NCBI GenBank assembly: GCA_902590295.1
Contig: CACIWH010000006.1
Coordinates: forward strand, 1-25,995
Length of the DNA stretch: 25,995 bases
Direction of reading: 5' to 3'
Origin: an uncultured Pelagibacteraceae bacterium
GTDB taxonomy: Bacteria > Pseudomonadota > Alphaproteobacteria > Pelagibacterales > Pelagibacteraceae
Shown here: in pieces, positions 3,673-4,299 of the stretch
How the letters are laid out: the number at the start of each line of letters is the position of its first letter
Position numbering within the stretch: the first letter of the stretch is position 1
Notes under the pieces: generated by a model
Databases searched by the model: none
The model's input: only the letters and a program-made list of their open reading frames with translations
Told to the model about the DNA's origin: nothing
Program-made: the position numbers and the translations under genes

Positions 3673-4299
3673 TTAACTATACCTTTTTTCTAATTCTTTT
3701 AACGAACTTTCAGTAAAAATTATTTTTTTATATTTAATTATATCGAAGGCACTAAAGTGATTAACGTCTGTACATTTTACATTAGGAATGTTTCTCACGG
3801 CTTTATCAATATTATTTTTTGAAGATTTATCTAAAATAAGAATACAATTAATAGCATGAAATTTTTTTAAAATTAAATTCATTTCTTTAGTTTTTTTAAT
3901 TTCTTTTGAAAAATCATTAAATATTATTAAATCATTTAATTTCTGTTTTTTTGTTAGTATTGATGCAATTCCTAGTTTTTTCTCATTTTTATTTAACTTT
4001 CTCTTCTTATATTTTGTCTCGCCTTTAGGACCATGGGCTACACCACCTCCAACAAATATTGGTGCTTTTCTGCTAGCATGTCTTGCATTACCTGTTCCTT
4101 TTTGTGCATAAATTTTAGATGTGGAACCAATTATTTCGTTTTTCTGTTTTGTCTTAGCTTTTCTCGCTTCAAATAATTCAGCTACTCTTGGTAGTCCTCC
4201 TGTAATATCCTTAGTCTTTGAAGTTTCCTTTGGTAATCTTGCTATTACGTCACCCGCGCTTATTTTTTTTCCATCTAAGCTAATTTTATCTATTTTCAT
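3673..4299 (-). CDS. rplD: 50S ribosomal protein L4 with an RpoC-derived N-terminal segment
   Basis: L4 binds 23S rRNA, and its extended loop lines the exit tunnel. From about residue 50 on this is ordinary L4: loop [34 protein letters not shown], and the C-terminal domain ending [14 protein letters not shown]. The start [11 protein letters not shown] also looks like L4. Residues 12-49, however, are identical to RpoC residues 1109-1146 encoded about 5 kb upstream on the same strand; D9-G10 also match. They include the RpoC signature [16 protein letters not shown]. Normal L4 proteins, from general knowledge, have an unrelated sequence here of nearly the same length, so this looks like replacement rather than insertion. 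The total of 208 residues is typical. The reading frame is intact, and rplC and rplW abut it, so the gene is probably functional. An assembly chimera cannot be excluded from sequence alone. Confidence 0.93.
4154..4276 (-). repeat. rpoC-like copy inside rplD (direct repeat, copy 1)
   Basis: This 123-bp segment matches 9135-9257 inside rpoC at a constant offset of 4,981 bases. The first 115 bases (4154-4268) are identical, 4269 differs (Lys AAA here, Gln CAA in rpoC), and the next seven match again. Beyond 4153 and 4276 the similarity stops. Both copies are on the minus strand and read in the same frame. The rpoC copy is the donor, because the encoded sequence is a conserved RpoC family signature. 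Confidence 0.95.

Follow-up and report, generated by a model that had tools for sequence, protein, structure and literature searches.

The gene for ribosomal protein L4 (rplD; 3673..4299, minus strand) in the window, by which we mean the whole 25,995-nucleotide stretch of Pelagibacteraceae DNA analyzed here, contains a piece of the RNA polymerase gene rpoC, and on balance this patch is probably a chimera that arose in vitro, through template switching or during assembly, and does not reflect what a living population carries. The patch is an exact copy of a donor within the same contig, is bounded by microhomology at both ends and is absent from everything else examined. Sequence comparison showed that codons 12–49 of rplD equal codons 1109–1146 of rpoC; a preliminary description had reported this identity for the protein residues, and it extends to the DNA at 115 of 115 bp. 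The copy in rplD occupies 4154..4268 (minus strand) and the donor copy 9135..9249 (minus strand), inside an rpoC gene that is whole (8402..12571, minus strand; RNA polymerase beta′, 1389 amino acids); the two copies thus share a strand and are separated by about 5 kb. Past a single mismatch at 4269, seven further bases (4270–4276) match rpoC, so that the outer junction originally placed at 4276/4277 stands as the edge of a near-match and fails as an exact edge, the exact block stopping at 4268.

No exact direct repeat in the window is longer than this 115-bp one, and the only other of at least 24 bp, 30 bp long, comes from a tRNA end that is duplicated; no exact direct repeat of at least 24 bp was found in any of 80 homologous SAR11 loci (9.4–20.6 kb each). 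Chance resemblance is excluded by the 115 exact bases and by the lack of such a repeat in the 80 homologous loci. Common ancestry of the two segments was also considered and rejected, since in none of the 80 SAR11 loci does the native L4 head look like the RpoC piece. The feature first noticed from the sequence alone is a true, non-random part of the sequence.

The contig is of SAR11 type, with its nearest loci in the Pelagibacteraceae, and carries rpoB-rpoC-rpsL-rpsG-fusA together with ribosomal protein genes. That rpoC is the donor follows from its being whole and from its copy of the segment, which agrees with the rpoC of relatives at as many as 104 of the 115 positions (the nearest relatives differ from it at 11 or more of the 115). 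The flanks of the patch are ordinary for the clade, the best relatives being 88–90% identical in the segments compared beside it in rplC, rplD, and rplW; across the approximately 14 kb aligned with 15 relatives, save for an uncovered end at 14256–14395, the patch is the sole divergent stretch (defined by a best 60-bp identity to relatives below 72%).

Two other features of the region were observed. A small gene between rpoB and rpoC (12574–12888) encodes a cytochrome c-like protein with a CxxCH haem-binding motif; a small CxxCH open reading frame upstream of rpoC is present in 15 of the 68 SAR11 loci in which this position is covered, these being the 15 nearest (L001–L015), and absent in the other 53. 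The 3′ part of a tRNA-Thr gene (TGT; 22197–22272) is repeated from about position 23639, the repeat comprising 30 exact bp and, after a single mismatch, another 23 matching bases that end in GGGGGCACCA; three small minus-strand genes sit between the tRNA and its repeated 3′ part, and the whole feature (22197–23692) resembles an insert of 1.4 kb in which the tRNA end is duplicated in att-like fashion.

With a relative (L001) as proxy for the native gene, a foreign core of 98 bp of rpoC (4165..4262, minus strand) takes the place of 95 native bp. The initial view that the segment had been swapped in, not added, was therefore right, with about 95 native bases out and 98 rpoC bases in, and the open frame and normal length then claimed are borne out (208 amino acids here versus 207 in native L4). 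The spacing from the DGKK motif to the RKAK motif is 33 residues in the chimera and 32 in native relatives. The chimera resembles native SAR11 L4 in residues 1–12 and 46–208, in gene order, and in length to within one residue, and differs in residues 13–45, which come from RpoC where the native protein has a TSIEV...NANYKG stretch. At the 5′ junction the microhomology consists of six A residues (4263..4268, minus strand) in a 13-bp near-match, GATGGA(A/C)AAAAAA, the native side of which was taken from L001 and L012; at the 3′ junction it is AGAAAAGCTAA, the RKAK codons in the sense of the minus strand (4154..4164, minus strand), the native side being inferred from relatives. The shared match at the 3′ end is 12 bp with L001 or L012 as the native proxy and 11 bp with the L4 tail of the window itself.

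An in vitro chimera would have originated during amplification, library making, or assembly. A growing strand would quit the rplD template at the short A-rich match, copy some 98 bases of the rpoC sequence lying 5 kb off, and return to rplD at the 11-bp match, or follow the reverse order on the other strand; alternatively, an assembler may have joined such pieces. We infer a switch in the tube or the assembler rather than in the cell. This origin fits best because the patch is known from one contig only, shows zero divergence, and deprives a core ribosomal protein of a conserved element. The identity of the copies at all 115 sites, although the rpoC genes of relatives differ at 11 or more of them, favors the same reading, and microhomology at both ends fits switching of templates by a polymerase. 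Against it stand the need for two switches, both in frame and with near-equal spacing, and the clean match of the remaining contig to its relatives. De Bruijn assemblers require exact overlaps longer than 6–11 bp; a chimeric molecule would thus probably be required, which also counts against an in vitro origin.

Chimeras of multiple displacement amplification offer a partial parallel. According to one study (Lasken and Stockwell 2007; PMC1855051), their junction matches span 2–21 nt, a range that includes the 6 and 11 bp found here, and, as here, two segments of one genome are joined. The chimeras counted in that study are chiefly inverted two-segment joins (406 of 475), whereas the rplD patch has the direct orientation of the minority (69 of 475) and, unlike the typical case, consists of two joins, out and back, with roughly 100 bp between them. 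Direct chimeras between segments less than 10 kb apart account for 11 of the 475 in the same study, which argues against the simplest version of an amplification artifact.

A join of another kind was seen in another SAR11 genome, G647, where contig C3 (L085 and L086) contains a 7.7-kb rpoB-rpoC-rpsL block twice, at 99.97% identity, the duplicate in L085 being joined to gatA, pyrB, and topA-like genes. The second rpoC copy was considered as another patch and rejected, as it belongs to this duplicated block joined to other genes. The duplicate is probably a misassembly or an amplification join; it suggests that public SAR11 assemblies contain misjoins in this operon, which favors an in vitro or assembly origin of the rplD patch.

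The patch may instead record a real, very recent in vivo event in which about 95 bp of L4 were replaced by 98 bp of RpoC; this is the main rival explanation, possible though not the favored one. Single-stranded rpoC DNA could have annealed to rplD at the two microhomologies, or a replication fork could have switched template and then come back. The cell would have lived on, its ribosome perhaps weakened, or the patch would be a short-lived deleterious variant. Short-patch substitutions from intragenomic DNA have reportedly been described in Acinetobacter baylyi under the name of short-patch double illegitimate recombination (SPDIR), and events of this sort lend the in vivo explanation some plausibility. 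In SPDIR a short intragenomic segment replaces another at microhomologies; the rplD patch likewise has an intragenomic donor, is a replacement and not an insertion, and has microhomology at both junctions (6 and 11 bp, with L001 and L012 as proxies). The open frame (one residue longer than native) and the unremarkable remainder of the compared 14 kb also agree with such an event, for which in vivo origin is here a candidate. On the other side, 98 bp is long for patches of this kind, the zero divergence means that the event must be very young, a conserved part of L4 has been removed, and the patch was seen in no relative examined. It is doubtful, in our estimation, that a living SAR11 lineage has L4 residues 13–45 from its own rpoC and a ribosome that works without the normal first strand and helix.

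The anatomy of the patch fits an in vitro chimera and an in vivo patch alike, because both switch at microhomologies. At the threshold used, 8 of 10 native proxies lack the junction pair of 6 and 11 bp, and same-strand microhomology pairs of comparable total length number 20–47 per proxy within this AT-rich window; microhomology is compatible with both junctions yet does not single out the site. We simulated replacements in which the native L4 sequence between microhomology pairs was exchanged for the matching stretch from another part of the window, five relatives serving as recipients. The L4 frame stayed open in 230 of 1065 replacements overall (215 of 921 same-strand, 15 of 144 opposite-strand) and, where length changed by no more than three bases, in 26 of 128 same-strand and 2 of 12 opposite-strand cases; the recipients are related to each other, and the trials are therefore not independent. 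As the frame would be expected to remain open about once in five times without selection, its being intact says little in favor of viability.

The preliminary description had left room for the same swap in related SAR11 genomes, and none was found: all 80 SAR11 loci fetched (the best 80 of 187 found) have native L4 heads. In a search of 5.8 billion proteins, the RpoC piece is absent from the 119 other best L4 matches (best 120 of 7999 candidates), of which 118 have L4-type heads and the remaining one (P0032, 178 amino acids) has a late start, within native sequence. Three proteins with low native-head scores (P0062, P0068, and P0099) were set aside, since their heads are those of ordinary L4 from a lineage farther off; the window contains no run of seven residues taken from the first 50 of any of them. 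When the search was scored on chimeric residues 6–56, none of the 119 other matches (best 120 of 5792) had the tested L4 motifs. Among 399 genomes related to that of L009, a sample of a larger group for which the best matches were listed, the protein query matched 312 and had no match in 87, the best of the matches listed showing 82% identity over residues 1–208, as expected of native L4. A 200-bp query of junction DNA matched 308 of these 399 genomes and had no match in 91; no match listed spans the chimera, all lying within query positions 24–150, the rpoC part. A 3′-junction pattern gave no match across the G002 family (397 genomes), but its native-pattern positive control matched only 2 of 60, so this search is given no weight and the protein and DNA queries above take its place. 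Four viral contigs that matched a pattern of the same kind were rejected, each encoding an unrelated protein with a shared 12-residue run (4 of 4).

A clade-wide trait is accordingly rejected, the chimera having been seen in no other genome, locus, or protein examined, among the matches listed. Within what was searched, the resemblance of SAR11 L4 to RpoC is thus confined to a single assembly, the very pattern that the first description had held to speak against its own interpretation. Absence elsewhere is no disproof, because the population is otherwise unsampled: the closest fetched locus has 87% DNA identity (best 80 of 187 loci) and the best other L3 protein 98% identity. The best other L4 tail, among the matches listed, has 98.1% protein identity; it belongs to P0003, on a 1,290-bp ENA contig, whose head is unlike those of near relatives and which may be a recombinant or a mosaic assembly with a break near the same RKAKTKQ stretch. 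Among the papers listed in literature searches, none reported such an L4-RpoC hybrid, and no paper in the collection searched joined rplD, rpoC, and Pelagibacter.

The chimeric protein passes as L4 in profile searches, with 166.7 bits against TIGR03953 (the NCBIfam L4 equivalog; cut-off 130.1) and 160.1 bits against PF00573 (Pfam L4; cut-off 25.8). It is aligned from profile position 31, positions 1–30 (the N-terminal strand and helix) being missing, whereas native controls are aligned from position 1 (4 of 4 for Pfam and 3 of 3 for TIGR03953); the patch takes out the conserved strand and helix that precede the tunnel loop of L4. AlphaFold gave a weak model of the chimera (38 rows; mean pLDDT 59.9), in which pLDDT stays under 50 at residues 12–59 and no helix of at least four residues occurs ahead of residue 137. 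The model of a native control, also weak overall (37 rows; mean pLDDT 58.7), has strands at 2–6 and 12–16 and a helix at 28–40, with block-mean pLDDT of 58–72 in residues 1–40. An earlier idea that an RpoC helix might substitute for the native one thus finds no confident replacement in these shallow and weak models, which hint, short of proof, that the lost strand and helix are not made good by the RpoC piece.

These results bear on a third explanation, that of an established functional hybrid in which the RpoC helix replaces the native helix and is kept by selection. The preserved frame and near-normal length would agree with it, as would the score above the L4 equivalog cut-off; the RpoC piece, moreover, ends in a 17-residue stretch, which we take to be helical, directly before RKAK. 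Set against these are the low model confidence at residues 12–59 and the missing helix there, where the native control keeps its strands and helix (in models both weak), the lack of divergence between the copies despite a change of role, and the finding of no relative with a hybrid L4. We regard such an established hybrid as unsupported and very unlikely.

The preference for an in vitro chimera over a recent in vivo patch rests on priors and is a judgement, not a measurement: amplification or assembly of environmental DNA commonly yields chimeric molecules, whereas viable 98-bp replacements in L4 should be very rare. The first interpretation, an intragenomic gene conversion tolerated by the ribosome, stands as to a swap with an open frame; for tolerance nothing beyond the contig speaks, and the idea that a ribosome tolerates RNA polymerase sequence is unproven and in all probability mistaken here.

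If the patch is an artifact, which is more likely, it is a warning that a believable hybrid of essential proteins, its frame open and its length near normal, can be encoded in a single public contig; the present one scores above the NCBI L4 equivalog cut-off and would be named an ordinary L4. If it is real, the replacement would have been caught nearly at the moment of its origin and would be a natural experiment in which a core ribosomal protein tolerates an unrelated fragment in place of a conserved structural element; this part of L4 would then be exchangeable for unrelated sequence.
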